Source: Schizophyllum amplum | Lineage: Eukaryota > Basidiomycota > Agaricomycetes > Agaricales > Schizophyllaceae | Reading direction: 5' to 3' | NCBI GenBank assembly: GCA_007026445.1 | Contig: VDMD01000005.1 | Coordinates: 1 to 64,000 of the forward strand | Length of the DNA: 64,000 nucleotides | Shown here: piece after piece, positions 15,328 to 38,165 of the stretch | How positions within the stretch are numbered: position 1 is the stretch's first letter | Layout of the letters: the number at the start of each line of letters is the position of its first letter | The notes under the pieces: generated by a model | The model's input: the letters and a program-made list of their open reading frames with translations, nothing else | Database searches by the model: none | Told to the model about the DNA's origin: nothing | Program-made: the position numbers and the translations under genes

Positions 15328-15411
15328 TTTGATCGATTGAAGTTTTCATGGCTTATTAACGGCGAACTTTTGATAAGCTATCGGGCACGTGTTCGGGGAC
15401 CTATCACTACG

Positions 15412-15529
15412 TCATAGCTTCGGTTCCTGCCCCTGACGAGTCTGGCGAATCCTAAGTCCTCGGCCGAACGCCTTTAGGGGCGCTGTCCTTGAGGCGCCAA
15501 TACTCCTTCCGCAACAAGGGGAGTTCCGA
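15412..15529 (-). CDS. LTR-2 pol, C-terminal tail beyond E-A
   Basis: This piece continues the polyprotein after the E-A insertion. With the TSD TCGGAAC (minus strand) counted once, the frame passes from the chromodomain (TENALRN) into about 37 more codons and stops at 15412-15414. The tail itself is not conserved with LTR-1. A neighbouring frame (LLRKEYWRLK) resembles the LTR-1 tail better, so a one-base change here is possible. Confidence 0.6.
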
Positions 15530-15537
15530 CACCTTAT

Positions 15538-16120
15538 GCTGTACCCCTATTGTAATACATCCCGGCCACTATCGGGGGGCTTATTGCAACACTTACGGTA
15601 AGGTCATCGGGCCCGGCAAACTCCGGTCTGCCAGCGAGCGCGGGTGTTCAGGGCCTTCCGGATTAGGATACGGCTCGCGGAGGGCTGCCGGGCGAGCACC
15701 CACGTGCATCCCGTTTGGGCAGGAGCACGCGGGTCGCCCGCCGCGCGCTCCGAGCGCCTTCGCGCGCGTTGGGCGGGATTGATGGCGCGTCCCGATTGGG
15801 AAGGGCGGGTGATCGGCGGGCTCGAGAGCGCCGCGCGCGCACGCCGCCGCTGCCGCTGTCGCTCCTGGGCGCTCGTAGGCGGAAGAATTCGATAATATTA
15901 TGAACTATATACAGATAATGTAGGTATGCAGGGGGGGAAAGGGCGCATATACGGAAAAAGCGCTGAAAAGCGCGCACAAAAAATTTTCGCGATCGCGCAA
16001 CGCCCTCGCTGGCTGGGCGAGCACGCGTACGCGTCATTGGGAAGGGGAAGATGGTGAGGGGGGGGGGGGTGTTTGAAACAGCAAGCGAGCTTGCAAGGAG
16101 CTCACTGCGCGGCGCGCGCG
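15538..16120 (+). repeat. E-A left terminal inverted repeat
   Basis: The reverse complement recurs at about 18470-19039. It includes an AT-rich patch (about 15886-15930) and the subterminal word AAAAAATTTTCG near 15980. Confidence 0.9.
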
Positions 16121-17615
16121 GGATGGTGGGGTGGGGGCCGCAATTGCCGATTGCGGTTGGCGCGCGGGCGCGCGGGGGGCTGCGCCATTCGAGAATGGTG
16201 CAGGGGCGTTCAAAATCGGTGTAGGCGGAGACGAGCCCGCGATAGGGCTCGTCGCGCAGCATGGGGGCTGGGGGGTGCGCAGCAGGCGGGTGGCGCGGCT
16301 GTAGCAAATGGTCGACGGGCTGGGTCGCGCGACGGACGCTGCAGGACGTGTCCTAGCGCGCTGCCGTCGACGCCCCGTGCTCCGATGCCGAGTATGGTCA
16401 TCTTGAATAGCAGGGGCGCGGTGGAGGGCGAAGGCGATGTGGCGCGTACGCGCGCCACACGCCTGCTGCTCCACTACGCTGCGTTCGCAGTCGGCGCCGG
16501 CGCCGCGCGCCAGCAGCACGCTCATCCCGCTCCCTTGTAGAGCCCGCTGAGGTGCTCTGACCCCAAGTAAGGTCTGCACCGCGAGGTCCCAGTGCGGTGA
16601 GACCTCAAGCGGTGTTACCCTTGTTGGAGGGCGCCGGGGCGCTCAGCGGGCAATGTGGGGAGAGGGGAGGGAGGGGCGGAGGGCGGGAGCTCATGGCTGC
16701 TCAGCAGCGGTTGGACGCGCCGCGCGTAGCCTATGTCGCGCGGGGCGTGGTTGATCAGTGGTGGAGGAGCGAGCGCGGGCGCCGATCGCTCGCACGACCG
16801 CCGCGACGCGCTCACCGAGCAAATTATCGACATCTGTAACATATATAAGTCAGTAATGAAAGTAGCGCAGGGCGTAGTCACGCACCTGCGGCGCGTCCGT
16901 GCGCAGTCCCCTCCTGCATTGCCATCCGCGTCGTTGGGCTCGTCATGCATCGCACAGCCGGTGATATCTGAATTTCACGTTGATTGAGGTACGCGGGGGT
17001 CGAAGTGAGGGATGGGGAGGGGGAGGGGGCAGCCGCGGGGTCGGGATGGTGGTGGTCAGAGGTCGAGAGGTGGCGATCGCGCACCGGCGGCGAGCCGGGC
17101 CGGGCTGCCGACCCTCGCCGCCGACGCGTTGGGCGACGTCCTCGTCAGTCCGGAGGACTTCCGAGTCCAATTGAAGACCTTTAGTGTGATGGGGGATGTT
17201 GAACTTATAGATCCCTGAAGCGAAAAATGGATTGAACATGAACTCATACAGATATGAAGTGAAAATGTGTGTAGGCTCATGTGTAGATTTCTCTAGTTCA
17301 TAAGGGAGAGGTCAAGGGTTTCTGGGCCACCATCTGAGGCCTCAGATACAGTCAGTAGTGGAGCATATCTAGATAGCTCTTATGAAGTATATACAGACCT
17401 GTTTTATGTCTTTATTCTTTCAGACGAGACAAATGAAGCTGAATTACAAGTGAGGAGAGTGTCCTTTGAGTATCTTAGTGACATTCTGGTATATTCCCAG
17501 CCCATTAGCCTGACATAAACCACATGTACTAATAAACATGATATACCGATGTAGATCTACGCAGTCTGAGGGCGATCGGGGCCCTCGATGCCCGGGAATC
17601 GCGTTATGGCTCGCC

Positions 17616-17643
17616 ACGAACGCGCTCGAAATGAGCGCGTTCG
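17616..17643. repeat. E-A core palindrome
   Basis: Arms GAACGCGCTC and GAGCGCGTTC around a 5-bp loop (GAAAT), followed by GTGACGTGACATAACGCGAT. The same palindrome occurs in E-B (22615-22640) and E-C (33256-33282). Confidence 0.85.
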
Positions 17644-17819
17644 TGACGTGACATAACGCGATCGTCTCCCTTGCCACCGTCATCCGCGACGCACGCCGCG
17701 CTCAATAGCGCTTCGATGGACGCCATTCCTTCGGCGATGGGGCGCGGGGACTCAGGGGAGTCCCTTTCAGGTGCGTCTTTATTGACAGCATCGTTTAAAA
17801 AAGCTAAAAACAACGTAGA

Positions 17820-17862
17820 GCGAGTAGCTGCAGAGCGCCACAAGCGCTCTGCAGCTACTCTT
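17820..17862. repeat. E-A core hairpin 2
   Basis: Arms AGTAGCTGCAGAGCGC and GCGCTCTGCAGCTACT around a short loop. It is the counterpart of E-B 22399-22437 and E-C 33463-33502. Loop and inner stem bases vary while pairing is kept. Confidence 0.85.
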
Positions 17863-18469
17863 GCATTCAAACATCGTTCATAGGAGATGTACGACTACCC
17901 GGGCGTATTACAAGACCCATCCCCCCACCCACGAGCGCAATCGCAAGCGCGCCCGCGCGCACACCGTCGCCCACCCCATACCCGTCATGAAGGCGAGCAT
18001 TAGCTCGCCTTCTGACGCATATCTCGCCATCCGCCTTGTCCTTCGAGGACTGAGGCGGGTAGGGAAAGGTATGGGCCGGCTTGCAGCGTCGGCGGGTCCC
18101 TCTGCAAGCGAGGGCGGGCGTGGCGATCACCTACGTACTTGCCAGTACCCGCGCCACCCACCACGCCGCGCGCCTCAAGTCAATCAGCGGCATGACGAGG
18201 GCAGCGGGCGCATAGCTGCCGGCGCTTCATGCCGCTGCCCCGCCGCCATCGCTGTGCCCGCGCCTCCGCCGCGCTACACCCCACACCCCACACCCCGCTT
18301 GCTGCGCCCTTCCCCATCTCGCACAACGAGCTTTCTCCTGAGCTCGTACACCATCCATTACACGCCACTATGCATCGATCGCCCGCGCTCCCGTCCGCCG
18401 TCCGCCGTCCGCCGCCGCCCCGATCGCCGCCGCGCAAATGCTCCGCCGCGCCATCCGCGCGCGCGCGCC

Positions 18470-19039
18470 GCGCAGTGAGCTCCTTGCAAGCTCGCTTGCT
18501 GTTTCAAACACCCCCCCCCCTCACCATCTTCCCCTTCCCAATGACGCGTACGCGTGCTCGCCCAGCCAGCGAGGGCGTTGCGCGATCGCGAAAATTTTTT
18601 GTGCGCGCTTTTCAGCGCTTTTTCCGTATATGCGCCCTTTCCCCCCCTGCATACCTACATTATCTGTATATAGTTCATAATATTATCGAATTCTTCCGCC
18701 TACGAGCGCCCAGGAGCGACAGCGGCAGCGGCGGCGTGCGCGCGCGGCGCTCTCGAGCCCGCCGATCACCCGCCCTTCCCAATCGGGACGCGCCATCAAT
18801 CCCGCCCAACGCGCGCGAAGGCGCTCGGAGCGCGCGGCGGGCGACCCGCGTGCTCCTGCCCAAACGGGATGCACGTGGGTGCTCGCCCGGCAGCCCTCCG
18901 CGAGCCGTATCCTAATCCGGAAGGCCCTGAACACCCGCGCTCGCTGGCAGACCGGAGTTTGCCGGGCCCGATGACCTTACCGTAAGTGTTGCAATAAGCC
19001 CCCGATAGTGGCCGGGATGTATTACAATAGGGGTACGAC
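18470..19039 (-). repeat. E-A right terminal inverted repeat
   Basis: Reverse complement of the left repeat. The LTR-2 pol frame reads into it by chance to about 18796, giving a false fusion tail. Confidence 0.9.
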
Positions 19040-19047
19040 ATCAGCTG

Positions 19048-21382
19048 GTTCCGAAGGGCGTTCTCCGTGACCCAGAGATCGTCCTCGGGGCCGTAGTGCT
19101 TCCATCGTACGAGGTATTGTAGGCGATTACCGTCCTTCTTGTTCGTGTAACGGTGCCCTAGAATGGCTTCGACCTCGTACTCCTCTTGTTCAGGCAGCAT
19201 GTCGCGAGTGTCGGGCAGTGTCGTGCGGATTCCGAAACGCTCGGGAGAGGGGTGGTATTTCTTGAGATGAGCTAGGTTGAAGACGGTATGCATAGGGTAG
19301 TTCGCCGGGAGCCGTAGACGGTAGACGAGGGGGTTGATACGTTCGGTTACCTCGAAAGGTCCCAAAGACCGTTGCACGAGCTTGGCGCCGTTACCTTCCG
19401 ACTCAACGAGATCCAACGAATGAGGGTTCACCAAGGCCCAGTCGCCTACGTTGAACACGGTAGGAGGCTTCCGGCCCTTGTTGTAAGCGCGCGCTTGCCG
19501 TTCTTGCGCAAGAACCACCGACTCGCGCGCGACCGCTCGGTACAGCTCCAGCTCGTCTATGAATTGTTCTGCCAGACGGCTCGGCAGCTGTGGGCGAATT
19601 ACTTCCTTCGTCGAAGCCTTGAATAGCCCGCCGAAGCAGCTCGGACTGTATCCATAGAGCAGGAAATTCGGAGTGTATCGAGTGGACGCGTGCACGCTAG
19701 AATTGTACGAAGCCGCCAGCACGCTAAGCCATTTCGCCCATGATGAACGGTCGGGCGTTGCGTAGGCGCGCAGCATCTGCTCCAGCATCGCGTTCAACAC
19801 TTCAGTCTGCCCATCCGTTTGCGGGTGGTGAGAAGAGGATAGAGCCATCTTGCTGCCATAGAAGGAGACGACCGATTTCCAGAAGTCCGTCGCCCAGCGC
19901 GCATCGCGATCCGTGATAATGCGCTCGGGTAGGCCGTAGACGTGTACAACCCGTTCTACGAAGATCTTCGCGAACTCCTCCCTCTTCAGCTCATTGTACG
20001 TAGGAATGAAGAGGGCGAACTTGGACATCTTGTCGACAATTACCATAATGGCCGTGTATTTCTCCTCACCCGAGGGCGGAAGGCCGGTAATGAGATCCAA
20101 GGACACAGTCTCGAACGGACGACGCGGCACATGCGCGGGGCGTAGGCCACCGGGCTTGCCTGAGCGATCGTACTTGATTTTCTGACATACGTCGCAGGTG
20201 AGCGCGAACTGGTCGGCGTCCTTCATCATTGATGGCCAGAAAAAGATGTCGCGTAAGCGCGAAGCAAATCGTGTGGATCCTGCGTGGGCGCTCTCGAACG
20301 GGGAGTCGTGTATGAGCGTCAACACATAGTTAACTTCGCTGCGGGGCACGCACAAGCGGTACTGCCAGTCCGCGTTGATGAAGTATAACAATCCGTTGGG
20401 TCCCTTCTGGAATCGAGAGGCCGTTAACAACGTTTGTGAGGAAGTCTCCGATTCTACGACGTGCTTGTTGAAGAAGGTATCCAGCTGGTACCCTGCTACG
20501 AATCGATCGATGAGCTCTGGCGCTAGCTGCACTAGTAAGTGCGCGTTGGGTTCCTCAACGGGTTGGAAGTCCGGTACTCCTGGGGGATACGTCCAATGGT
20601 CTCCTTCCGGAAAGGGTAGTCCATCTTCGCTTTGCGCAGGGGCCTCCTCTTCTTCGTCGCCAGTGTCAGAGCTCGCGGACGAGGATGACGGCGCTGAAGC
20701 AAAGGGTAGCTCGGCAGCTTCCTCCTGTTGCCGTTGCCGGCGTGTCTGGATTGCGTAGGCCGCGAAGGGGGAATGGCCGTTGGACGTCTCTAGTAGCTCC
20801 TCCCAGAACAGGGCACCCACTAGGCGGTCTTCCGGTCCCAACGAGGCTCCAAAGGCAGCGTGCCGAGCAGGTTTGTCCTTGTCTGAGTCCTCCGCCACCT
20901 GTCGCCATTCTTGCTTTTCCTCGTCCACTGGTATATGAGCGGCGGTGTCGCGAGTCGGCGAGCTGTGCTGCGGGACCCGTGGTAAACGCGACAGCGGATC
21001 CACATTAGAGTGCACTCGTCCAGGGCGATGTATAATGCGAAGGTTCGGATACGCTGCGAACACCGCCCCCCACGCCGCCAGCCGCCGATTCGCGTTCTCG
21101 TAAACGCGCACCCACTGCAGTGCGGCGTGGTCCGTGATCAACAGGATGCTCTCGCCCTCGATGATAGGCTGGAATTTGACCAGGGCTTCCTTGGCGCCCA
21201 AAGCTTCCCGCTCCGTCGCGCTGTAGTTGCGCTCCGCCGGTTGTAGCGTCCGACTCCAGTACGCCAGGACGCGCTCCACATGTACGATGGAGTCGTCCAA
21301 GGTATCAGCCCAAACATCCGGCGCCTTTTGCTCGCCTGAATCTTTGTACGTGGTGTACATGGACGGAATAGGCTGGTTCTTA
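19048..21382 (-). CDS. LTR-2 pol, middle part: RNase H, integrase, chromodomain
   Basis: On the minus strand this segment continues the polyprotein after E-B. The RNase H end (YWSRTLQPAERNYSATEREA, ILLITDHAALQWVR, IIHRPGRVHSNVDPLSRLPR) is followed by an acidic linker. The integrase has the zinc-binding HDSPFESAH...CDVC and the catalytic core with Asp, Asp, Glu in SLDLITGLP, IITDRDARW and HHPQTDGQTEVLN. A chromodomain (EYEVEAILGHRY, YLVRWKHYGPEDDLW) lies at the end, which marks a chromovirus. The segment is uninterrupted. With the TSD GTTCTTA counted once, the frame from 24519 onward joins without a shift. Confidence 0.93.
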
Positions 21383-21710
21383 CACCTGTGGCGGTAGGCT
21401 CTTTGCAAAGACCTTGGACAGTTGTCCATCACGTAGTTGAAAAGTCCTCGGATCACTTACCTACACAGCCACAGCCCCCCGGCGGCCCTCCGGCAGGGGC
21501 TCCGGGCTCGGGGGACATCCCGAGCGCACCGCCCGTTTAGGCAGGGGCCCGCGGGCTGCTCGCCTGGCGTGCCCGGCTCGCTCCCGCGCTCGCCGCACGC
21601 CGCACGCGGCCTCGACCGCCTTCCCGTTTGGGCACGGCGGTCGATCGGCGTGCTCGGGGCGTCGCGCGCGTTCGCGCGCTGCCGCTGTCGCCGCCGCCGC
21701 CGCCGGTCGT
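21383..21710 (+). repeat. E-B left terminal inverted repeat
   Basis: Reverse complement at about 24190-24518. It ends near a run of CGC triplets. Confidence 0.9.
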
Positions 21711-22398
21711 CACTCATAGGGTATTGTGCATAGAATAAAAATTGTTTATTTCGAATATATAGAGTCAAAGAAGCGCGTGAACACGCTGCGAAAAATTTTC
21801 GCCGGGCATCGCGCGCTTGAGTTGTAGGGGACGCCACCGCGTGTGAGGGTAGATGGAGGGTTGTGGGACGTGGGGGGGAGGTGACAGAAGACGCTCTCGT
21901 GGGGGAGCTCATTGTGATGGAAGGGCTGCGCATGCGGGCGCGGCGCGAGAGGCGAGCGCGGCGGCACGGTGCGGGGGTTTGGCGCGGTGTGGTGTTGAGC
22001 GAGGCGAGGGGCACGCAGCGCGGTGAGCGGCGGCAGTGAGATCCTGTGCTGACGGGTGTGCATTGGGCGACGGAAGCGCAGGGAGGGTGAAGAGAGGTGG
22101 GGAGATGGGTGGAGGCTGGGTGCCCGATCGTGTTGCGTGCCCTCGCTTGTAGAGGGCCCCGGCGTATTTGCGGGCATCGAGTGGCCCCCCCTCCCCCCCC
22201 CACCCGCACAGATACTGTTGAAGCACAGCGCATGCGGCCGGGGACACGTCAGCAGGCGTGCTAACGCCCGCCTGCAGGACGAGGGAGGGGCAAGTATGCG
22301 CGGGTGCGCGGGAGCGCGGGAGCGCGAGCGGCGCGCACATGTTTTCGGGGTGTTCGTGTGTATCTGTCCCCTCGCGCGGGGACAGCGCAGACGCGGGA

Positions 22399-22437
22399 AC
22401 TAGCTGCAGGGCGCTCTAGAGCGCCCTGCAGCTACTA
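22399..22437. repeat. E-B core hairpin 2
   Basis: Arms TAGCTGCAGGGCGCTC and GAGCGCCCTGCAGCTA meet with almost no loop. It pairs with E-A 17820-17862 as a family motif. Confidence 0.85.
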
Positions 22438-22614
22438 TACCTATGTTGAAGTTACTATAATATATACTAGTTTGACGGCCACGCACCTGGGGGGCCTTGC
22501 CAAAGTCCCCTTTCCCTAGTTCTCCAAAAGACCCCGTTTATTGAACCGCTGTTGAGCGGCGAATGCGTCGCGGATGGTGGCGAGAGGAGGGGAAGGCGCG
22601 TTACGTCACGTCAC

Positions 22615-22640
22615 GAACGCGCTCATTTCGAGCGCGTTCG
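22615..22640. repeat. E-B core palindrome
   Basis: Arms GAACGCGCTC and GAGCGCGTTC around ATTTC, the complement of the E-A/E-C loop. This shows the core is inverted relative to those copies. Confidence 0.85.
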
Positions 22641-24189
22641 GGACGAGACACGGCGCGATTCTGTCGCATCCAGGCCTCAGATGGATGCGATTTTTCGTAG
22701 ATCTACCTTATTCCGTGTAATAAACCATGATATATCGTCACTATCAAGCCTTGAGGTCAGCAACATACTAGAATAGCAGCATATCATACAGAGATCACTT
22801 CCCTCATTCACTGTTCAGCTTAATCTATTTCATCTGAGAAGTTTGAGGCTCTGAATTTACCTGGAGAGTGTACAGTAAGACCGCCTAACCATGTCCCAAC
22901 TTTGACTGTAGCTGAGCTAGCAAAAGAGGGCTCAGAATGGCCAGGTCTATACCTTAAGAAACAGTGAAATCTGTAGAAACCTTGGGCAGAACTCTGAGTG
23001 AATAGAATGGCATATTGTAGCTCAATTCCTGTTTTCTCTTCAGAAATATAGATACTCAAGTGCTATCTACAGGCTACAGGCGCTGAAAGAGTGTCGGAAG
23101 CCGTTCAAAGCGCTGCCGCGGTCGTCGAGCGCGTCGGCGGCGGACCTCGGATGCCGGACCGGGACACCGAACCCGCGCGATCAAGCCCTTCTCATCCTCA
23201 ACCACGACCACCACGACCGCCCAGCCGCCCCCGGCCGCCCTCGCTTCTTCACGAAACGTACCAGAAGACCAAAAATACTCAAACACGATGTCTTACTCTA
23301 CAGCGGGCGAAAATACGCGCAGTGGAGGAAGGGTGCGGGAGGCGGGCTGCGCGCCTGCTCCCGCGCTGCAGGTACGTGTGGACAGCCCAGCGCGCGTGCC
23401 GTTCTCGCTGACGGATATTCAGTCCACAATCAACATACGCTTCACGGCTAGGAACAAGGACGTGCACGCAAGCGTCAGCATGAACGCCCGCCGACGCCCC
23501 GCCTCGCCTGCGCAGTCGGCGCGTCCCAAACACACGACGCACCTTGGGCATGTTCTCAACCACGCAAGAGCAAGAAACATGGCCAGATAAACCCCCAACC
23601 CCCCCTCCATTGCCCTCGCACGCACATACGCGCGTCGGGGGAAAGCCGCTCGAGTACTCATTGCACCGGGAATTCGTGGCTTTCCCCTCGGCCAGCATGC
23701 GTGCGAGAGGCACTGTACCGGCACTTGAACGCGCGACACAAGCCGCATCAGCAATCCGCGGGCTCTAGCAATCCCCACGACACATCCACCTCCTGCTACC
23801 CCCTCCCTTCCTCCCTCGCGCGCCGCTTCTCGCGCCGCCTCCAGCACACGAGCAAGCTTCTCTGTGTAGCCCGCAAGCACCCGGCGCGCTGTAAACGTGT
23901 CTTGCGTTGCGCGTGCGCAGGGGCGGGCGCAACGGCGCTGGGTATTTTGGGCGTGCGTGCGCGTACGCGCCCTGGAGCCACACCACAGCCCAACGACCTC
24001 CCCGGCTTGTAAATACAACCGTCCCACCGCCTCCATCTACCTACCATCCGCACGCACGCACACGCGTTCCAGCGCCTGCCTAGCGTACGCGCAGCGCGCT
24101 GGCGAAAAATTTTCGTCGCGCTCGCGTATAACCCCCAACCTTGCCATTATGTACATACATACAGTGCATATATCTTATTACATTGTTTT

Positions 24190-24518
24190 GACGACCGGCG
24201 GCGGCGGCGGCGACAGCGGCAGCGCGCGAACGCGCGCGACGCCCCGAGCACGCCGATCGACCGCCGTGCCCAAACGGGAAGGCGGTCGAGGCCGCGTGCG
24301 GCGTGCGGCGAGCGCGGGAGCGAGCCGGGCACGCCAGGCGAGCAGCCCGCGGGCCCCTGCCTAAACGGGCGGTGCGCTCGGGATGTCCCCCGAGCCCGGA
24401 GCCCCTGCCGGAGGGCCGCCGGGGGGCTGTGGCTGTGTAGGTAAGTGATCCGAGGACTTTTCAACTACGTGATGGACAACTGTCCAAGGTCTTTGCAAAT
24501 ACCTTACCGCCTCAGCTG
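24190..24518 (-). repeat. E-B right terminal inverted repeat
   Basis: Reverse complement of 21383-21710. The outermost 25 bp are less well matched than the rest. Confidence 0.9.
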
Positions 24519-27500
24519 GTTCTTATCCCATGCGGCTTCCAGACGTTGATATGCCGCTGTCCCGCGGAGGTCACCGACCTTGATAGGCTGGACCTGCTGA
24601 AGACAGGCGCCAAGCGCCACGTCGGACGCGTCGGTATACAGGCGGTACGGCTGGTGCATGATGGGGTGGCCGAGCACGGGCGCGTTCATAAGCGCATCCT
24701 TCGCCTGTTCGAACGCGATCTCGTGCTCCGCCTGCCAATCCCATCGCGCACCTTTCTTCAGGAGTCGGAAGAGAGGCGCGGCGATGTACGAGTAGAACGG
24801 AATGTACATAGAGAAGTACACCACCATGCCGAGGAAGCGCTGCAAGGTAGGAACGTTGTGTGGCCGCTCCAGCTCCTGGATCGCCTGCACCTTCTCCTCG
24901 TGCGTGGACAGGCCGAGGCGTGATACCTTCTGGCCCAGCAGAAGGATGGACGAGAAGCCGATATAGCATTTCTTGGGCGAGAGCGTAATGCCGGCCGCTG
25001 CAATCGCGCTAAGTACTTTGTCCAGGTGCACGAGATGGTTGTCCCAGGATTTCGAAAAGACGACAATGTCGTCAATGTACACCAATGCAAACAACCACAA
25101 GTAAGGGGAGAGGACGCTCTGCATAACGCGTTGGAAGATTGAAGGCCCGTTGCGCAAACCGAAAGGCATCCGCTTGAACTGAAAGAGCCCCATGTGGCTG
25201 CGGAAGGCGGTCTTGTCCTTGTCTTCGTTAGCCATGCGCAATTGCGTGAACCCCGCCAAAGCGTCGAACGAGCTGATGACCTGCGCTCCCGATAGCGCCT
25301 GAATAATCTCCGCTTGCCGAGGAATAGGGAATTGATCTTCCACCGTCATTGCATTGAGTCGCCTGTAATCAATGGCGCACCGAGCCTTCCCGTTCCGAAA
25401 GACCACGACGACAGGAAAACCCCATGGACTTGAGGATGCTTCGATGACTTCTTTCTCCAGCCATTCGTTGACCTGCTTCTCGATAACTTCGCGTTTGAGG
25501 GGTGAAGCGCCATAGCCCGGAAGGGAGACAGGTTGAGCTCCTTCTTTTAACGGTATAGTGACCTTGGTGTCCACTTCGCCCAGTCGCCCCCCAACGCCGA
25601 AGGCGCGGACATTCCGCTTTAGCACTTCCGCGAGGGGTCCCTTGTATTCGTCAGGAATGTCGGGGCCTAAGTTGACGAGCTCGTTAATCGGCAGGTCCGG
25701 TAGAGGCTCGTCCGGCAAAGCGGTTGTCTTCGGGCCCCATTGCTCCTCCTCCATCTTGTCCGCGGCGGGACAGGGACCTGCTCCATCAAACCGCTGCGGC
25801 GGGTCGAAGGCCGATGTCTGCAGGTCTTGCTGCCGAAGTGAACCTTGGATAATAGTGTGAATGGCCTCCAGCGAAGCGGCGTGATGTTGCCGCTCTTCTT
25901 CGTCCACTGGCTTGTCGATCCAGTCATCCGGGCTGTGGAGGTAGCCCACCACGTCCCCTTTGCGGATGTAGTGGGGGCGCGCGCTGGGGTTGGCCATCGG
26001 TACATACGGGTTATCCGACTTGATCCAGGTTAGCGGAGCCGCCATGACCGAGCCGTCCTCGGTGCTAATCGCAAGTCGATCTACCAGCCAGTCGTCCCGC
26101 CCGTCCATAGGCGCCTCAACCTTGATGTTGTGCACGCTTCCTTGTGTAACGATGTAGTCCTGCGCGGCGCAAACTGGAATCAAGTCCAGCTTCGCCCGTC
26201 TCGCAAGAGCCTTGGCGCGTTTGTGACCGCGCGCCCGTACGTAGGAAGGGCTGTCGTCCCTCTTAAAGACCGTGAAACCCACGTTGACCCGTCTGGAAGA
26301 GGAAGCAGGTATGATGCGTCCTGAGCGACCCACGCGTATTGAGGAGGTACCGTTCGCGTATCGCTGAACACTGAGCTCGTACGCGGTGTGGAAGTCCTCC
26401 CCCAGCAACAGGGGAACCTTCATGCCCTTTACCACGTAGGCCTCTACTTCGAAGCATACGCGCTCACCCGTGTCCGTGGTCGCAAACATCGGGAAGTGAG
26501 TATATCCCAACATGGAGGCCTCGCCAGTTAGGTGGTATAGCTTCATCCTCATGCCCTCTTTCGGACGAGGCAGATCCGCAATAGTATTGAAGTATTCCTC
26601 CGATATGAGCGTCAGGTCGGCGCCGGAATCCATGCGTCCATCGATGGGGACCGTGTCCAATGAGCCAACTTGCACCTTGCACTGCAGAGAACGAGAGTCC
26701 AGAGCGCCGTATCCAGCTGGATGAGAGGCTAACTTCGGCGCGTAGAAGATGGGGCTGTCGTTTGCCATCGCCTCGTAGTGCGGAACGTCGACGAGGCCAT
26801 GCTTATTGACGGAGTACGCGGCTGCGGAACCCGGCCGAGGCGACGCTCTACGCTCCTTACGTGAGATATCGGAGCCCTGCGCAGGGGATTTTCCTTTGTG
26901 CCGCAACTGCTTATCGTGCTCGATATGCGCGCGGCGTCTCTCATTGTGGTTGCTCGGAGGAGCAGGAGAGCGCGCGTGCTCGGCCCATGCGCCTGTCCAC
27001 ATCGCGTTTCTTACTTCAGGTGACGGGGAAGGCGCACCAGAAGGTGACGCGTCAGGCGCAGGCGCTGATACGCCAGAATAAGCAGAGGAGGTAGATTTGG
27101 TAGACACAACCATAGCAATGTACTCGCGATCCATGTTATCTAACTCTTCCTGATCCACCTCGATAAAATTGGCGCGTCGCAGCGCGTCCCACTTGCCGAA
27201 GTGAGGACAGTCGCGTGCAAAATGATTCGGGCTCGTACAGATGAAGCAGTCGCCCTTCGCCGGTGCCACCCTGCTCTTCACGTCGTCGCGACGGTCGAAC
27301 GCGTAGCCGTTGATGGTTCGTCCTTTTGGCCAGTCAGGCTTCGCAGTGGGGGGGCGCTTGTTACGCCGGGCCTCCACTGCAGCTACTTCCTTCGGGTCGC
27401 GTTCCTCGAGAAGGATGCCTTCTTCCCAAGGGATAGGATCAAGCTGGCGCCCTTCGTCGTCCGAGATCTCCTCCACTTCCACTGGCCGCGCTCCTTTCTT

Positions 27501-30326
27501 ATAGAAGTAGGTGCGCTGGGTGGTACCTGCCGGGGTCGAAGTGAGGGGTGTGCCGCGTGATCGCTGATGCAACTCCCACATGCTAAGGAGAGGAGTCTCG
27601 AAGTAGCTGGCTGCGTACTCGAGCTCGTAGACGTTCGTCTGGGCCTGCTCGTTGAGGGTAGCGCGCCATTCCGAGGGTATGTTTCGGAGGATTTCGTAAA
27701 CGAACAGGTGAGTGTCGCCCAGCTCGGGGTGAAGGAAGTAGGCGATGCGAATTCGACGCTGAATATACTCCAATGGCGTCTCTTCCTTGTAGCCCTTACG
27801 GAATTCCATGGCGCTGAATTCCGTGTTACGGTCGCGTATCCACTTATCGGTCATAAAGTGGTCGCGGATGGCGAGGAGGAAGTTATCCCACGAGCTGGCA
27901 ATCGTTGTACGCGCGTCGAAGGGCAAGGTCCTCCACCACGACAAGGCTTTACCGGTCCACAGCTTAGGTGCGTACTGTGCAAGGCCAATTTGAACGAGGG
28001 GTCCCAGACGCGCGAGTTCCTGCAGCTCGATAAGGTAGTCGATGAGGGTGGAGCCGCGCCCATTCCATTTCGGAACTTCATTGAGAGGCACCTTATGGTT
28101 GATCTGCCACTGTTCGCCGCCTTGGTGAGGTCCTTGGGGCGCTCCCGGCGGACCGCCGCCGCCACCCGGGGGGCCGCCGCCCGGAGGACCGCCACCGGGC
28201 GGACCGCCTCCTCTTCCTGGGAAGCCTGCGAAGTTGAAGGGGGGGCCGCCTCCCGGTGGGCCTCCACCGCCTGGCGGGCCTCCGCCGCCTCCACCTCCGC
28301 CACCTCCTCCTGGATAGTTGTTCCCTGGTGGCCCGTGGCCGCCACCAGGCGCTCCTCCGTGCGGGGGCCCTCCTCCTCCTTGATGAGGGGGGAATCCACC
28401 TCCCGGGTGGCCGTTAGACTTGTCCGAAGGGCCGCCTGGGTAGCCGGGGTTTACATGAGCTACTGGCGCTGCGGGAGCGTAAGGCGGGACCATTGTTCCT
28501 CCTCCAAAATGAGCGGGACGCGGCGCTTGCGTGCCTAGTGTAAGGACCGTCGCGATGGGGTTGTTGGACGCATACGGTTGTCCCATATGGGGAGGGACTT
28601 CTCGGAGGCCCCCCACAGCCGAGTTCGTAAATCGAGCCCTCCGGTTATCGCCTGTGGTAGGCGCTCCGCCGGCAAGAGGCGTATACGTAGTCGGTCCTAA
28701 AGGATTAGACGGCCGCTGAACCAATGGCCCCCCACTCCTCGGCCCCCCTTCGTCCGTAGGTAGCCTGGCGCCCATAAAGGAAGTGACATGATGCTTGCGT
28801 CTTCCCAGCGTCGACAGGGTGTCGCTAGAGGTCCGCCCCGCTGCTTGGGGCTGCATGATAGATGGTAGACGACCAAATGGTACCTCCTCCTGAGACAGCG
28901 GCTGACTGGCCGCAGTGTCTCCTCTCGCAATAGAAGGGTTGGAGCGAACCGTCCAGTCGTCCCGTATGTGAGAACGCGTCGTGCTACGGTCCTCCTCCAC
29001 GATCTTAGCGTCCCCGCGATAGAATGCCTTCGGGAGCTGAGGACCTTCCGCTTCCTTGTAGTAATTAACGAGACGGTCGGTAGCGATAGGATCAACGACG
29101 CGGAACTGCTCCTGGTAGTCGGGACGAATGGCGAGCTTAGCGAGCTCTAGCCTAGGAGTGCCCTGACCGAACCGGGAACGCGTTGACGATAGCGTGGAGC
29201 GTTGTGAGGCCAGGTCGCTGATGTCGAGTTCTTTGGAGAGGATGCGCGTAAGCGCCTCCAGACGCGCCTTGATATAAAGGTCCGCGACATGGAGGCGGCG
29301 CATGAGAGCCGTGAAGGCTAAGATGACCTCCTGGGGGTCCGGGTGACCTCCGACGACCTCCATTAGTTTGTATTCCGGATCCACGAGGAAGATACGCCTC
29401 GAGGGCTGCTGGAAGAAAGTACCGAGCGCCGAGACGATCTGGTTGGCTGCGACCACCGCATGTGCCACTACTTGCATCCAAAGAGGGAGCAGGCAGAATA
29501 CGAAGTTGGAGGATTCGGCCGGTTCCTCGGGGCGCGTGAACCGCCAGAGAGAGGTAGAGTCGAGAGGGACGTTTTGTATGGCAGCTACTCCTTCCGAAAA
29601 GCAATCCCAAATCAGGTTGCGATGAGCGCTCGTGTAACGCATGACGGCGCATCGTACGAGGTGGGAGTCGTCGAGGGATACGCCTGGTAGACAGCCGTCT
29701 ACGGCGCCGTAGACCGCGAGAGGGTCCTCCTCGTCGGTCTCCACCCAGTGACCACCGCATAAGCGCTCGACCGATTCGTCGAGGCTCTCGTCGAAGCAGC
29801 TAAACCCAGTGCCCCAGAGGCTAGGGACGGGCATCGGCTGGAAGACACTGTGGTCGCCGGCGGCGTTGGCTTGTAGGGCCACGGTGATACTCTCCACGTC
29901 CTGTACGCTGGAAGATATGGAGATTCCAGAGACGGCCGATAAGCCGGGAGTGGTGCGCGGCGCCTCAGAGAGTTTCGCCTGAGCCGTACTATCTGTAGTA
30001 GTCGAGTTACTCGACTGAGCTTCGGGGGCCGCAGAGACGGTCCGCGTAGAAGATGTGGAAGAATTATTCTTCGGAGAGGCTTCGGTCGTGGGCGCTTCAC
30101 TCGCAGAGTGATCGCCAGGCGCGACGGAGGGCGTGGAGCGGATGGGGGTCGCGGGCGCACCACTCACAGAGCGGTCGCCGGACGCGATGGAAGGGGCAGA
30201 AGGAGGGGTGGTGCGTCGGGATTCTTCTCGCTTTTTCGCTCGCACGATTCGATCCTCCGGCGTGGTGCGGGAGGAGTTAGACGCAGTTCGCGGAGCGGGA
30301 GTGTTACGCCGACCGTTATTGGACAT
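24519..30326 (-). CDS. LTR-2 gag-pol, N-terminal part: Gag, protease, reverse transcriptase
   Basis: Start chosen at 30326 (MSNNGRRNTPAP). The open frame extends to 30551, but that part has no conserved sequence. Gag has a disordered N-terminus, a helical region, a long Gly/Pro tract (about 28090-28440), a capsid region and a zinc knuckle CFICTSPNHFARDC (about 27220). The protease has the intact active site RMDSGADLTLIS (about 26630). Reverse transcriptase runs WGFPVVVVFRNGKARC, AIDYRRLNAMT, PFGLRNGPSIFQRVM and YIDDIVVF (about 25070), then the connection and start of RNase H (YRLYTDASDVALG). Joined with 19048-21375 and 15412-15522 it totals 8247 nt, exactly 2749 codons with stop. There are no internal stops, unlike LTR-1. 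Confidence 0.93.
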
Positions 30327-33255
30327 GTAAGGAAGGGAATGTTGGGAGTTAGTGATGATTCCCTCACTTCCTCCTGCCCGTATTTCTAGTATTACGGATA
30401 GGCTAGCCGGCCGATTGAGTCCGGGCGTCGTAGGCCAGCCTCCGCGTGTAATCTGAGACAATTGGAATTGACCCTTGGATACCCGCGGTGATGGCGATGT
30501 GTCGCTCTGGTGCCAGAGATGTATATCGCCGATGTGAAGTCGCTGTAGCAAAGCAGCTTCGGTTAGAGTGAACAGTATCTCGTCGAAGCTCCGCGGTCAT
30601 GCCACCATTGTGATGCGGTCGTGCATCGAGTAAGGTAGCTCCAGCGAGATACTGTAGGAGAGATGGTGTGGCGACCGGCCAGGGCAGAAGGTAGTGGTCA
30701 GGTCGGTCGCAGATAGGGGTACCGGTCAGACAGGAGTGTCGGACAGGTGCCGCTTCGCCAGAGAAGGCGCTGAGATAATGGGCGGCAGGGCGCCCGGCTA
30801 ATCGAGGCGCCGTGGCCGGCTAGGCCACCCGCTGCGTAGGCGCCGTACGCCCGTAGCAGCGGAGGCCTGGGGTCAGGGCGGGTCGCGACGCGGAGGCGCT
30901 GTCGGCGACCCGAGTAAGTATAGCGGTAGCCCGTCGTGGGTAAGCGCGTAGGCGCTACGCACGGCGGGCTACGCGAAGGCGTGAGAGGAGCCCTCGCACC
31001 TTATGCTGTAGGTCATTAACTTAATGGACTGGATATGTCCCACCAACGCTTTTATATGTTGGTGGGCGCTATCCCAGCCCGGCAATTGCCGATCCTCGCA
31101 GGCCGGGACAGGCCTATTTGGGGCCGGGCAACCGGCCTAAAGAGGTATTATATTAAAATGCAGCCCACGGAATGCCCTTTTTGGGGGTTTGTGGGCTTAT
31201 TTATTGAATTTGGGCATTTTGCGCCCAACGTGGCTGCCTTGCTCGCGTGCGCCGATCACGCAACCGCTGCGCTAGCCCTGGCACGTGGCGCTGCGCGCGC
31301 GCCACCGCAATCGCTCAGCGCGGCGCAGCGGCTCGTCGTTCTTGGAAAAGTAATGATAATTATATGTGTCTACAATATATAAGCCCCGCTCCCGCGAGCA
31401 CAGCGGGCAGGGGCATGGGGCTGGATGAGGGTATGCGCGTGCCCGCGTTCACGGCGGGGGGCAGGGGTGTGGGGGCTGGGTGAGGGTATGCGCGTGTGCC
31501 CACGTTCACAGCGGGCGACAGCGCGCGTGCGCACGGGCGACCGTGCACACCCTCCCTCGCGCAGAGGTGCACGTTGCGGCGCTGCCCCGCTAGCACGCCG
31601 TGCGAGCACCTTGAATATGGGCTGCTCCGATCGTGCGGGAGCGAGTGCATTGCGCACTACCCAGTCATTTGCGCAAGCGGAGGTGGATGCCGCGCCGTGT
31701 ATACACGGACGGCCCACCACAAGCGCGAGAGCACCGCCGCGACACGTTCGGCGCGCCAAGCGCCTGCGTGAGGACGGCCGCCGTGCATGGCAGCTGGGTG
31801 GTGCGTGCAAGACGAAGGGGAGAGGGGTATGCAGCCGATTGGTGGCGAGAGGAAGGGGGAGCGCGTGGCTCGGCACGCGGAAGGAGGTGGCGGCGACGTT
31901 GAGGGCGGGCGCCACGCCGCCGTCTCCGTGTCCCCAACGCGCGTCAGCGACCGTCTCATTCGCTCGCCCCACATGTCCCTATACCTCACTTGGCGAAGGT
32001 GGTAACGGGATGTTGGAGGTGGGCAAGCGAGGCGGGCGCTACTGCGCGGTGGGGGGGGGGGGGGGGGGTACAGAGGCGGCGGGCGTCGCTTTGGGTTGGT
32101 GTATGGTTGCTTGAAGGCTTCGGAGGGGCCGGGCACCGGGCGCGTTTGGTGACGGCAAGCTGAGGACAGGCGCCGCTGGCGAACGCATGCAACGCGGTAC
32201 GTGCGTGTGTGCGTTCGCGAGCGGTGCCGAAATTTTTCGTCAGTATCAAACACAACGGTAGAACCTTTGTGACGTACCTCGGAGGGCTCCTGTGAGCCCT
32301 CGCACCCCTTGTCCTCTCGTTCCGATGGTTTGTCGCGTCGCGGTGAGCGGTATGGGGAGGCGGGTGGCCTGGCGACGTGGTGGTGGGAGGCAAGGGCGAG
32401 CGCGTCGCGTCACGTCACACGGCGCGTCGCTTAACGCGCTTCGCGTCGATCTCCGCGTGTCGCGACGTGCAAGAGGGCAGTGCATATGGGCAATACATTG
32501 TACATTAGCATATAAGAGTTGCCAAACGGGCGCTGCGACCTGCTGCGCGTAGCGCGCGCGTCTGCCCTATCATCCCGCGCTCTTGACTGCGCTGTGACGC
32601 GTATATCGGTTAAGTATTTTCGTGACGACTCGAAGTCGTTTTCTGAGGAGCGAGGAGGGTGGGGGCCAGCCGCAGGGCTGGGGGAGTGGCGGTTGAATGC
32701 TGAGGAAGCGCCGATCGCGCACACACGGCGACTCGGACCGGTCTGCCGAACCTCGCCGCCAACGTCCTCGACGAGCACAGTAGCAATTCGGACGTCTTCC
32801 GACGCCGGATTGAGGCCTGTAGCATGTATAGTACATGGTAATGTCTTGATATCTGATGGAAGAACTGAAACTTCGATATAAACAAGTATTGTATACTACA
32901 AAAGTTCAGAGCAGATGAAGCTCAGATTTCATTGTTTCTTAAGGTGTAGAGCGGCACATTCTGGGCTCCCATCTGAAGGTCCAGCTACAGTTAAAGCTGG
33001 GACATCTTTATATACACTTACTTTACCATATACAGGTGATTTTTGGGCTTCAGTCCTGTCAGAGAAATCATAGTGGACTGAACAGTGCTTGAGGACAGTG
33101 AGATCTGGGTAATGTGGTAGAATTTCTCTATATTCCTGACCACATGGCTTTACAGAGACTGCATAGGGTAATGAAATATATAGAATACCGCACATCTACA
33201 GATAATTGAATCGATCGGAGGCCTCCGCGCGCCGTGATCGCGTTGCGTCTCGTCC

Positions 33256-33282
33256 CGAACGCGCTCGAAATGAGCGCGTTCG
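33256..33282. repeat. E-C core palindrome
   Basis: Arms CGAACGCGCTC and GAGCGCGTTCG around GAAAT, followed by TGACGTGACGTAACGCGAT. It is identical to E-A except for one base in the flank. Confidence 0.85.
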
Positions 33283-33462
33283 TGACGTGACGTAACGCGA
33301 TCACCTCTCCTCCCGCCACCGTCCGCGACTCGCCCGCCGCTCAACAGCGGCTCGATTGGCCGCGATTCTTGGGGATCGGGTAGCGGGGACTCAGAGGAGC
33401 CCCCAGCAGGTGCGTGACCATCACTGCCCGCAAGAAAAAACTGACATAAGCGTAGATACAGT

Positions 33463-33502
33463 TGCTGCAGAGCACGACTGGAATGTCGTGCTCTGCAGCC
33501 TT
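33463..33502. repeat. E-C core hairpin 2
   Basis: Arms GCTGCAGAGCACGAC and GTCGTGCTCTGCAGC around a short loop. The stem differs from E-A and E-B at several base pairs, yet both arms still pair. Confidence 0.85.
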
Positions 33503-35048
33503 TCTAGCCGGTACATATCCCCCGTCGCAAACCCAAACACACCCCCCGACACCCCACGCGACCACTGCGTTGTGCGCTAGCACAGCCGCCTGCCCGCCAT
33601 CGCCCGCCACACGCGCCCCATACGCGTGATGGAGGCGGTCCATCGCCGCCTCCCTGATGTGCCCCCCATCCTCTGCCACGTCCGGTCAGGACTGCAGTGG
33701 GTATGGGAGGGTACGCGCTGGCTATCGGCGACGGCGGGGCCCTCTGCAAGCGAGGGACTGCCTACGGATCGCGTGCGCGCCACTACGCGCGCCGCCCTCC
33801 ACCACGCCCCCGCCTCCGCCGCGTGCCCAGCGTGTGATCCTTGAACAACGCGGAAGGCGTCCCCCCACGCGTCAAGGTCATATGCGACTGTCCGTCGCCG
33901 CGTCGCCGCCACCGCGCCTGCATCCCCCCTCGCCGTTCTCCACCCCAAATCCAGCACGACGAGCCCTTTTCTAGGCTCGTCCGCTCACTCCCTCTCTCAC
34001 AACGCCCCACCCTCCTAGACGCAGAGGCGCGCCATCTGTTGCTGCTACAATCCCCATGCGCGCGCGTATTGCAACACGCCGCGCGTTCTGCCCCCCCCCC
34101 CCCCACCTCTCCCCCACCTCTCCCTGTGCATCTACGGCGCGCGCAGCGGTTTCGGCTGGCACGTCTCAGTGGAGATGTTGCTTACCAACCGCCGCTTACG
34201 CTTGCGATCGCGCAGGGGTCGGGAGCGCGACCGCTCACGCTGTCGATCGCGCGCCTCACGCATCACAGCGCCCCCCCTCTCCTGGTTCCCTCTCGGCCCC
34301 ACCCCCCTTCCCGGGAGCTCCTCAATTACATACCCTTATGTCCAGATCTGTATATAAGGCTCATCGCCCGCCGCGCGACGTGCACGCCGGCCGCGAAATT
34401 TTCGTGCATTCTGTACTCGCTTTTTATTCGTGTTCATTCATTTATTTTGAGAATCATATGTATATACAGCACAAACAGTATTACTACATCCCCTGTATGC
34501 AGAAGAGCACGGTGAATGGGCTGCAGGGGGAGCCTGCGCGCGGGTAGCGCCGCGCGCGTCGGGACGCGTGCGCACGTGGGCGGCAGGGCCCGAGTGCCAG
34601 CGCGTGGCCAGAATAATTACACGCGCTACGGTTAATTAGCCATCAATTTGTGATTTCCCATTAATGCTGAGCCCGGCAGCCTACCTGCCATTTACAGCCG
34701 GCCCCCGGAGGGCTCCCGGGCAGCCGGACTCGGAAATTTCCGGCTTAGGATAACGCCCACCAACATATAAAAGCATCGGTCGGACATATCCCAGTCTATT
34801 AAGTTAATGGCTTACAGCAGCAGCTGGCCCTCGTCTGAGGCAGCGCAGGGGCGCCACACCGACGAGGGCTACGAGTAGACGATTCGGGACATATGAAGGC
34901 GTAAGTCAAGATGATATTGGTCACGGACGCGTGACGCGTAACAAGAGGGCGGCCCGGAGCTTCGGGCCGCTACAAGATAATGAGTATCGCGTAAGTAAGT
35001 CACTGTAATGCTAAGTCCTGCGAGCGTGTCTCTACCACCCATACCACA

Positions 35049-37932
35049 TCGCGCTCGTCTACATAGACGACATCGTTGTCTACTTGTCTACTCGAAGACG
35101 TTTGACGAGCACATCGACCACCTTGACAAGGTATTGGAAGCGGTGGAGAAGGCGGGACTCACTCTATCCCCAGCAAAATGTCACCTCTTCTATGATTCCA
35201 TCATTCTGCTAGGCCACCGGGTATCACGGCTGGGGCTATCCACGCACGCCGAGAAAGTCAAGGCCGTGCTGGAGCTGGCGAGACCGACGAAGGTAGCAGA
35301 CCTGCGAGCCTTTCTAGGAATGACAGTCTACTTCAGCTCATTCATTCCCTATTACGCCGACATCTGCGCGCCATTACACAGACTGCTGAGGAAAGACGTC
35401 AAATGGGAATGGGGACCGGAAGAAGAGTACGCATTTGTACAGGCGAAAACCGCGTTACAACGCGCCCCAGTACTCGGCCACCCGCAGGAAGGCCAGCCGT
35501 ATCGCCTGTACACGGACGCATCTGACTACGCCCTCAGCTGTGCTTTACAACAAGTACAAGCCATCAAGATTCGCGACTTGAAAGGCACCAAGCTGTATGA
35601 CAGGCTTAAAGACGCGCATGAGCACGGCCGCCCGCCACCCCGCCTGGTCTCCAAACTGTCGGACAAGATTGACGACGCGCGTACGGCCGCGGCGTGGGCG
35701 CCACACTTTGACGATACCGAGGTGTTTGTAGAGCGGGTCATTGCGTATTGGTCGCGGTCCTTCAAGGGCGCGGAGGCGCGCTACAGCACGACTGAGCGAG
35801 AGGCGCTCGGAGCGAAGGAGGCGCTCGTGAAATTCCAGCCTTACATTGAAGGTTAACGCATTCTGCTCGTGACGGACCACAGCGCGCTGCAGTGGGCGCG
35901 CACCTACGAGAACAGCAACCGCCGTCTCGCATCCTGGGGGGCGGTCTTTTCCGCGTACGCGCCCGGGCTGGAGATCATACATCGCCCTGGCAGGATTCAC
36001 TCGAACGTCGACCCCCTGAGCCGCATCCCGCGAGCCCCGCCCGCCAGCTGCTCACCGGCTCGTGAGACGGGCCCCTCCTTGTCCACCGACGCAGCCACCG
36101 CGCAACTGCGCGAGGAAGCCGCCAGCCGAGCACCATCGTCTAAAGCCTTTGAGACCGTTCACCTGACGGAGTGCCTCGAGACGCTACCATCCGCCTATGC
36201 CGCCTTCACACGGGCGGCAGCTGCTCGCCTAGCGCGTGGGGGGGCGGAAGAAGGGACCGAAGCGAAGGGGGATAACGGAGGGTCACAGGCCGATGGACAG
36301 AACAACGCGCAAGACGAGCAGCGACAGGAAGCGGGAGACGACGACTCAGACGAGGAGAACGACGATTTCATTCCGGGCAAGGGCTACGAAGGAGTTTTCG
36401 AGCGTCCTCCCGCCATTCTGCTACATGTCACGGAGGAGGAAGCGAAACGCTTCGAAGCGGCCTATAAAGCGGAACCATACTGGCGAGCAAGATGGGAAGA
36501 GGCGGGGACTCATTCGGCGGGCTGGACACCAGGGAGGCGATACTTCAAGTCCGACGACGGTCTATTGTTCTTCTTGGACGCCGACTATTTACCTCGCCTG
36601 TGCGTGCCAGACCAGCTGATCGGAGAGATTCTGCAAACGGTGCACGAAGGGCCAATGGAGAGCGCTCACGGGGGACCGGCGAAACTCTGGTCCAAATTGC
36701 ATCCCAAGTTCTACTGGAAGCGGATGAGGCCCGTCATCGAGAAATTCTGCCGCTCCTGCGACGTCTGCCAGAAGATCAAGTTCGACAACTTCAGAAAGTA
36801 CGGGACCCTGATACCGAATCCCATTCCGCTATCACCCTACGACTCAATCTCCATGGACTTTATCGTGGGACTACCGGAATCGCACGGGTTCTCGTCGATT
36901 CTGGTAGTGGTGGATCGCCTAACGAAACACGCCGTCTTCATACCAGCCCCCGGGAAGCTGGACGCAGCCGCTACTGCCGAGTTGTTCGTGCGGCACGTAG
37001 CCTCCAAGCATGGCCTCCCGTCAAGCATTATAGCGGATCGCGACCCAAAATGGATTTCGGACTTCTGGACCGCGATGGCAAAGGAGATGAAGACCAAGAT
37101 GATGCTTTCGTCAGCGCACCACCCTCAGCACGATGGTCAGACAGAAGTCTTGAATCGACAGCTGGAGACGATGTTGAGGGCGTACGTGGCGAAGGACTTC
37201 AAAGAATGGGCCTCCCTTCTGCACCTTCTCGAGTTCGCGTACAACTCGGCCACTCATAAGTCGACAGGGCAAGCTCCTTTCATGCTGCTCACGGGACGCA
37301 TCCCCCGCTCGCCAATGGACCTTAACTACCACGTGCCTAGCCTAGACGAACCGAGGAGGGATCGCGACCTCGACTCCTTCTTAGAAAGGATGAAGGGAGC
37401 GCGGGAAGCAGCCAGGGACGCCCTGGCCGCAGCTCAGGAGGAGCAGGCTAAAGCGTACAACAAAGGTCGTCGAGCGGCCCCAATCTTCAAGGAAGGCGAA
37501 CACGTTCTGGTTAACCCCCACTCGTTGGAATGGGTGGAGGCTCGAGACAAGCCTAAGCTCAGGCAGCGGTGGATAGGGCCGTTCGAAGTTGCGCAGAGGA
37601 TTAGCCCGAACACGTACCGCCTGCACATGAGCGACAAGTACCCAGGATTCCCCGTCTTCAATATTCAGCACCTCAAAAGGTACCACGAGAGCTCGATAGG
37701 GGACGCCAGCGCCAGGGCTCAGTTGCCGGAAACACACGGGCAGCACATTGCGAGCGAGGAGTACGACGTAGAGAAGATCATTGACCATAAGTGGGATAAG
37801 AGGAAGAGACAGCGGGTTTTCAAGGTAAGGTGGAGGGGCTACGGGCCGTTCTACGATTCCTGGCAGACGGCGAAGGACTTGCGGAATGCCGACAAGTACC
37901 TCCGCAAGTACAAGCAGAACAATGGGCTCTGA
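35049..37932 (+). pseudogene. LTR-1 pol, second part: reverse transcriptase end, RNase H, integrase, chromodomain
   Basis: It resumes after LTR-2 with LVYIDDIVVY (35054-35083). An 8-bp tandem duplication TGTCTACT (35077-35084/35085-35092) shifts the frame. Past it comes YSKTFDEHIDHLDKV. An in-frame TAA at 35854-35856 lies in RNase H (before RILLVTDHSALQWAR). The integrase is whole: zinc-binding CRSCDVCQKIK, core Asp/Asp/Glu in SMDFIVGLP, IIADRDPKW and HHPQHDGQTEVLN. A chromodomain (EYDVEKIIDHKWDKR, FKVRWRGYGPFYDSW) ends at 37932. The breaks are too few for a long-dead copy, in line with the near-identical LTRs. Confidence 0.9.
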
Positions 37933-38165
37933 AGGTCGGACCGGAATCGCCGACAGCCGGGCTGATCGGCTATCTCCGGTCGGCTAGCGACCCCGAGTGC
38001 GGCGCGCTCGAGGCGCGTGTTCCACCTGCGTCCGTTCTTTCCTTCTGCCTCCATCTTTTCCCCTCCTTCTCTTCACTCGACGGTCGAGCTGTTCGATTCG
38101 ACTGCTCGCCTTGTCTGAGTCTCGCCCTCCGATCGCTTCGACCTAGGGCGAGTCCTTCCTGCATC

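Follow-up and report, generated by a model that had tools for sequence, protein, structure and literature searches.

Seven-base duplications and unlike ends in a family of non-autonomous DNA transposons of Schizophyllum amplum, probably of the KDZ superfamily

The window analysed here, i.e., the first 64,000 nucleotides of contig VDMD01000005.1 of Schizophyllum amplum (a part of the contig labelled C255 below; GenBank assembly GCA_007026445.1 with 49,653,570 bases in 309 contigs), contains a retrotransposon carrying three elements, E1, E2, and E3, without a recognised gene of their own. Each is flanked by a perfect duplication of 7 bp, a length considered in an earlier note, written from the sequence alone, to fit none of the commonest superfamilies. 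The locus raises the question of what these elements are and which transposase moves them. Concerning the first part, they belong to a real family of DNA transposons, as the earlier note had proposed; concerning the second, they very probably fall into several non-autonomous, cut-and-paste subfamilies within the KDZ superfamily and would owe their movement to a KDZ transposase of the CxC2 type. The features in question are the following (window positions):

15530..19047, plus strand: E1, non-autonomous element of 3518 bp, inverted repeats 15530-16134 and 18443-19047 (97.9%)
15523..15529: left 7-bp duplication of E1, GTTCCGA
19048..19054: right 7-bp duplication of E1, GTTCCGA
17116..17776, plus strand: conserved non-coding core of E1
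21383..24518, plus strand: E2, non-autonomous element of 3136 bp, inverted repeats 21383-21712 and 24189-24518 (98.5%)
21376..21382: left 7-bp duplication of E2, GTTCTTA
24519..24525: right 7-bp duplication of E2, GTTCTTA
22473..23142, minus strand: conserved non-coding core of E2, reversed relative to the ends when compared with E1 and E3
30997..34826, plus strand: E3, non-autonomous element of 3830 bp, inverted repeats around 31004-31108 and 34714-34819 (82%)
30990..30996: left 7-bp duplication of E3, GCCCTCG
34827..34833: right 7-bp duplication of E3, GCCCTCG
32754..33415, plus strand: conserved non-coding core of E3
10969..35048, minus strand: host Ty3/gypsy retrotransposon holding E1, E2, and E3, 5-bp duplication TCGCG
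11350..11356: empty site of E3 with a single GCCCTCG, within the intact partner long terminal repeat (LTR) 10969-11571

The three elements and their relatives in the genome

The host retrotransposon possesses LTRs of 603 bp (10969-11571 and 30609-35048), the right one of which is split by E3, whereas E1 and E2 are situated in its body. Because E3 was inserted into the right LTR of the same retrotransposon, the left LTR represents its empty site: GCCCTCG occurs there once and around E3 twice, which fixes both the boundary of E3 and the length of 7 bp. For the observation itself this empty site is decisive; an empty site with another duplication length had been named beforehand as evidence against the family. 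Since the two LTRs differ at only one of 603 positions, the insertions of E1-E3 are young.

On re-checking, the coordinates given earlier, the ends CACCT...AGCTG, and the perfect duplications proved exact, as did the placement of all three elements in one retrotransposon. The inverted repeats, given as about 580, 325, and 80 bp, are indeed long and unequal, but measure 605-608 bp in E1 (97.9% identical), 330 bp in E2 (98.5%), and around 106 bp in E3 (82%), where they begin 8 bp inside the element. The claim that excision restores an open host frame finds weak support: with 90 bp on each side, the E1 junction has one and the E2 junction two stop-free frames on the minus strand. A Pfam scan of 10 of the 11 open reading frames of at least 200 amino acids lying wholly within E1-E3 (that at 16034-16642, minus strand, was left out) yielded no match.

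In the window, a scan for ends of the form CA[CG]CT...AG[CG]TG at most 9 kb apart and flanked by duplications of 6-11 bp returned four candidates, namely E1, E2, E3, and one match elsewhere with a 6-bp duplication, which looks like a chance match. DNA searches of the whole genome with cores and ends gave 9, 11, at least 46, at least 42, 30, and 23 matches; the two lower bounds stem from searches scoring 40 out of 77 and 40 out of 104 candidates. Both ends were examined in 18 elements, i.e., E1-E3, 14 elements elsewhere, and a larger element bearing a KDZ gene (C279:32599-46483, see below); this set includes the pairs at C245:9861, C90:493582, and C157:78058. Pairings of ends from different elements or from none, elements known from match coordinates alone, and three palindromic structures (C157:71894-76050, C157:72283-75678, and C13:549221-554757) were left out. 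The last-mentioned exhibit the same element end on both sides, with inverted instead of direct flanks; they look like inverted duplications and possibly derive from aberrant transposition.

A perfect 7-bp duplication is found in 17 of the 18 elements, all 17 duplications being different, a proportion that carries some ascertainment since some of the elements were located by duplication scans. The miss, C13:542964-555323, has no duplication and was retained in the set; a duplication of 8 bp occurs in none of the 18. Each of the 18 combines CACCT at one end with CAGCT at the other, and all have CA..TG ends, the ends having been sought by the pattern CA[CG]CT with any combination of the two allowed. 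Taken whole, the 12 uninterrupted small elements are 3134-3830 bp long, and each possesses inverted repeats (106-651 aligned bp). No KDZ, Mutator-like (MULE), or hAT genome row, these being the three families compared, lies inside the other small elements. Many copies are dispersed over the genome, and members are often nested in one another (C257, C245, C13, C57, and C1). Recent movement is evident from E1 and its copy at C257:42183-45691, which are 99.63% identical end to end and have different duplications. Larger spans between matching ends (C13, C57, C1, C245, and C257) were considered as autonomous copies, but these contained a nested member and no transposase gene. Core copies lacking the ends, which according to the earlier note would speak against the family, are not fully excluded: around the copy at C57:134501 no ends were recognised in the 9.9 kb examined, and the copy at C157:73742 lies within a palindrome having the same end twice.

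Despite inverted repeats that are 97.9% identical over 608 bp, the outermost 12 bp of the two E1 ends differ (CACCTTATGCTG versus CAGCTGATGTCG). Furthermore, when oriented by its CACCT end, the element at C245:9861 aligns to E1 in reverse from end to end (93.6%). The simplest reading of these alignments is that recombination between the inverted repeats may flip the interior, while selection would retain one CACCT and one CAGCT end per element.

Two further features of the window concern its surroundings:

4188..41498, plus strand: outer Ty3/gypsy retrotransposon, LTRs 4188-4673 and 41013-41498, duplication GGGAC
1..65: terminal 65 bp of an additional element, 88% identical to the C1:2150501 type and truncated by the contig start

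The LTRs of the outer retrotransposon are 99.4% identical over 486 bp, so that two opposed gypsy elements, one inside the other, form together with E1-E3 a three-level nest of recent insertions. The contig itself begins inside the CAGCT end of the element of the C1:2150501 type, and C278 likewise has an end near its start (256-576); the long inverted repeats may break the assembly.

Source of the transposase

The earlier note had also suggested looking for a longer copy with a transposase. A candidate is C279:32599-46483, an element of 13,885 bp with the left flank GACCATT, which was first found as a weak match to the end of E1. The left duplication allowed the position of the right end to be predicted: the exact 12-base pattern AGCTG+GACCATT occurs four times in the genome, among them at C279:46479 on the strand expected. 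The end read there is CAGCTGATGTTGTACC, with an inverted repeat of 286 bp at 93% identity, such that the element has the ends CACCTTATGCTG.../CAGCTGATGTTG... and the 7-bp duplication GACCATT. Over the first 133 bp its identity to E1 amounts to 75%, and over the outer 109-136 bp its identity to the E1-type ends compared amounts to 72-78%. On the minus strand, it contains pieces of a gene matching the KDZ family (PF18758, E 1.1e-33) and CxC2 (E 7.5e-35). Towards the left inverted repeat, the open frame approaches to around 40 bp and the similarity to the C-terminal part of other KDZ proteins to 150-190 bp, which leaves little space for a separate nested element to end on that side. Named relatives of one KDZ piece are from Lentinula, Mycena, and Marasmius (the best 9 of 36 matches being unnamed or "hypothetical").

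A second case, known from its left end only, starts with the CACCT end at C257:10685, where 571 bp match the 3.1-kb element C257:88247-91390 at 98.9% identity. Behind this end lies a KDZ gene on the same strand as in the C279 element and at a similar distance (2.5-2.9 kb inside, versus 2.0-2.8 kb). Both genes are alike along their length (28-42% in pieces), and the KDZ pieces of C279, C257, and C266 match one another along the protein, whereas those of another KDZ element, on C77 (see below), match in one piece only. Among the three types suggested earlier (Mutator-like, Dada-like, and KDZ-type), KDZ is the one picked out by the evidence, because one KDZ element agrees with the family in both ends and in the 7-bp duplication, and another one in the single end that was read.

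According to the mechanism proposed here, larger elements with the same ends would produce a KDZ transposase whose N-terminus contains a CxC2 zinc cluster. This protein would bind the two unlike ends, 5'-CACCT and CAGCT, excise the element, and insert it at a staggered cut of 7 bp; acting in trans, it would presumably also move E1-E3 by excision.

Some observations weigh against this assignment. The KDZ transposase family accounts for 77 match rows in the genome, each corresponding to an exon piece rather than to a gene, yet both ends were seen in a single KDZ-bearing element with a 7-bp duplication, and the ends of the KDZ genes on C266, C280, C101, C79, and C46 were not found. The KDZ region of C279 contains stops when read in frame, which result from introns or from decay, and the gene may be inactive. 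Neither the core nor the core hairpin nor the subterminal palindrome described in the next section was found in the parts of C279 that were read (37501-45799 excluded), nor did the genome searches with the core return a match on C279; the small elements are therefore not simple deletion derivatives of the C279 element. Moreover, the Kyakuja elements, the published group of KDZ elements most similar to the family, are described without inverted repeats (Kojima 2025, PMC12730594), whereas those of the present family measure around 106-651 bp and those of C279 286 bp. The length of the duplication, finally, is perhaps not a clean mark of lineage, since 4-8 bp are given for Cryptococcus KDZ2 and KDZ3 (PMC12810828).

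Approaches starting from the KDZ genes themselves contributed little. Looking for CA..TG ends with 7-9-bp duplications in stretches of 16-22.5 kb produced 54 (C266), 45 (C280), 36 (C101), and 23 (C79) candidates, none of which stood out. A comparison of the C46 and C101 copies, which are 95-98% identical over long pieces, gave a right border without a recognisable end. Near another KDZ group, a 29-bp repeat occurs at C79:3529-3557 and C79:13092-13120, inverted around the gene, and at C46:165662-165697; as a lead to the ends of the C79 element it led nowhere.

Other transposases have to be weighed against the KDZ assignment. That the elements are mobilised by a hAT transposase of the hAT7 type, the KDZ genes of the two larger elements being passengers, is improbable: hAT7 elements with 7-bp duplications are reported from rust fungi (PMC12730594), and the genome contains 17 rows of the hAT dimerisation domain, one of them around 0.8 kb outside the C279 element; in C279, however, the KDZ gene is situated inside the ends and the hAT row outside, and the layout behind the second end (C257:10685) is similar. 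Furthermore, no row of the hAT dimerisation domain, the one domain searched, lies between the listed paired ends, these lists being lower bounds beside which unpaired ends and unread interiors remain. That a Mutator-like or Dada-like transposase went unrecognised and moves the elements has an even smaller chance of being correct. Dada elements are known for duplications of 6-7 bp. The genome contains six MULE rows, long inverted repeats being typical of Mutator-like elements (PMC3310237). None of these six rows, however, lies between the listed paired ends (again lower bounds), and it is a KDZ gene that was found inside such ends in C279. Against Dada elements with one fixed target (multicopy small-RNA genes) speak the 17 different duplications and the window, in which no tRNA or Rfam gene was found; no search aimed at a Dada transposase was made.

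The non-coding core and the subterminal palindrome

In 16 copies delimited by their similarity to the core of E3, the core shared by the elements has a length of 653-671 bp, less than the around 850 bp estimated in the earlier note; further short blocks common to the elements exist outside of it. The 16 copies are 54-99% identical, and 115 of 675 alignment columns are invariant. A near-invariant hairpin in the core, GAACGCGCTCGAAATGAGCGCGTTC, was recovered with at most four mismatches in the window and in 19 element-holding loci, and not in the KDZ loci compared; because most of the element-holding loci were fetched via matches to cores or ends, this distribution represents a contrast and not a survey. 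At positions 775-828 of the window, part of the hairpin recurs (39 bp at 90% identity) without a recognisable element around it, perhaps as a remnant.

In six pairwise comparisons of full elements, 13, 0, 2, 3, 3, and 0 gap columns fall within the core (519-663 aligned bases), compared to 86, 104, 117, 132, 71, and 97 within the arms (1823-2230 bases). Relative to its length, the core is poor in insertions and deletions (indels) in all six pairs, less clearly so in the first. The outer 300 bp of both ends, which are more alike, are also indel-poor (1, 5, 4, 5, 10, and 13 gap columns in around 600 bases). In three of the six pairs, in one of them by less than 0.01, identity is lower in the core than in the arms. 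Between E1 (17116-17776) and the C90 copy, identity drops from 0.93 to 0.53 at the border of the core, the arms being 85% alike. These alignments suggest that the core may be a cassette exchanged between elements with its length kept.

The subterminal word AAATTTTCG, pointed out in the earlier note, is real. Symmetric sequences of the form CG-A(2-5)-T(2-5)-CG were found at 10 sites in 7 of the 12 elements, compared to a mean of 0.83 and a maximum of 4 in 200 single-base shuffles. At nine of these sites the palindrome, CGAAA(A)TTTTCG, is located 407-441 bp from an end, and E1 possesses a near-match around 450 bp from both ends. The palindrome and the core may serve transposition or persistence.

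With regard to the core, it is hardly likely that the elements are self-sufficient and that an unrecognised product or RNA of the core itself drives their movement. In favour of such an explanation, subfamilies have a common core with few indels and a near-invariant hairpin, and among the 69 base pairs predicted, 12 exhibit one or more double changes by which pairing is preserved. As a protein-coding region, however, it had to be rejected, each of the six reading frames containing several stops in all 16 copies. Rfam gave no core match at the gathering score, a single match below it (E 0.49) being judged a chance match, and no tRNA was found. The covariation term (-1.63) is small compared to the folding term (-64.31). 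Local hairpins only, and not a single structured RNA formed by the whole core, are supported.

Returning to the KDZ transposase as the source of mobility, a wider reading, which is proposed tentatively, would regard the elements as a community of non-autonomous satellites supported by a distinct KDZ lineage (7 bp, long inverted repeats, and an obligate code of left and right ends). These satellites would share the end signals, the palindrome with its fixed distance from the end, and a non-coding cassette locked in length at around 660 bp and not seen in the helper; the cassette would be swapped between elements and might have a function of its own, e.g., as a structured DNA or RNA module recruiting the transposase or protecting the element. 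The combination of paired unlike ends, a size of 3.1-3.8 kb, and an indel-poor non-coding core of around 660 bp is unusual. Elements without genes which have diverged much, yet kept their size and a non-coding core, lead one to ask what is under selection when one parasite exploits another. The pairing of CACCT and CAGCT, kept despite near-identical repeats just inside, makes end recognition directly testable in KDZ elements, which are little studied.

Comparison with known systems

A separate KDZ kind exists in the same genome. The element at C77:19789-31003 (11.2 kb) possesses inverted repeats of 337 bp at 99.4% identity, CACCTG at both ends, an 8-bp duplication, TATGATCG, and weak matches to CxC1 and CxC3 below the curated cut-offs. 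C278 carries a second copy, which is 99.9% identical over a compared length of 7.5 kb. With one kind of 7 bp (CxC2) and one of 8 bp (weak CxC1), the cause of the stagger length can be compared within one host.

Concerning the published systems, the C77 element resembles Cryptococcus KDZ1 (CxC1, 8-bp duplications; PMC12810828) and is a better match to it than the family of E1-E3. The latter shares the KDZ transposase and the inverted repeats with Cryptococcus KDZ1-3, which are mobile, 9-11 kb long, and have inverted repeats of 139-241 bp; the Cryptococcus elements differ, however, in their CxC1 and their duplications of 8 bp or 4-8 bp, compared to CxC2 and 7 bp in C279. A passage of that study implies that no shortened non-autonomous insertions were seen (PMC12810828). 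In Pleurotus, intact KDZ genes have CxC2 ahead of them (PMC7641404), and in Ectocarpus, mobilisation in trans was inferred for giant elements, including KDZ elements whose transposase is predicted to be broken (PMC12477816). Zisupton and Dileera belong to the same transposase superfamily, and Zisupton has inverted repeats as well, but their duplications are 8 bp long (PMC12730594), a length present in none of the 18 elements. The fungal hAT7 elements agree in the 7-bp duplication and differ in their hAT transposase (PMC12730594). No description of a non-autonomous KDZ or Kyakuja-like family was found in the open-access literature, so that, as far as this literature shows, the family can be called undescribed, as supposed in the earlier note; it does not constitute a new superfamily.

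By comparison with the published description, E1-E3 are most like the Kyakuja elements of Agaricomycetes (Kyakuja-1_LB and -2_LB of Laccaria bicolor), with which they share the 7-bp duplication, 5'-CA..TG-3' ends, and, by way of the larger elements, the KDZ transposase (PMC12730594); for KDZ, the view that 7 bp fits no common superfamily needs to be updated accordingly. The published Kyakuja elements were collected for their TET/JBP genes and encode their own transposase (PMC12730594), whereas E1-E3 are without a recognised gene; as for TET/JBP cargo, only two weak rows exist in the genome, one of them below the cut-off. Further differences from published Kyakuja elements are the pairing of one CACCT with one CAGCT end and the size of 3.1-3.8 kb. 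Since the length of the duplication and the ends point to Kyakuja and the long inverted repeats do not, the family is filed under KDZ as "Kyakuja-like".

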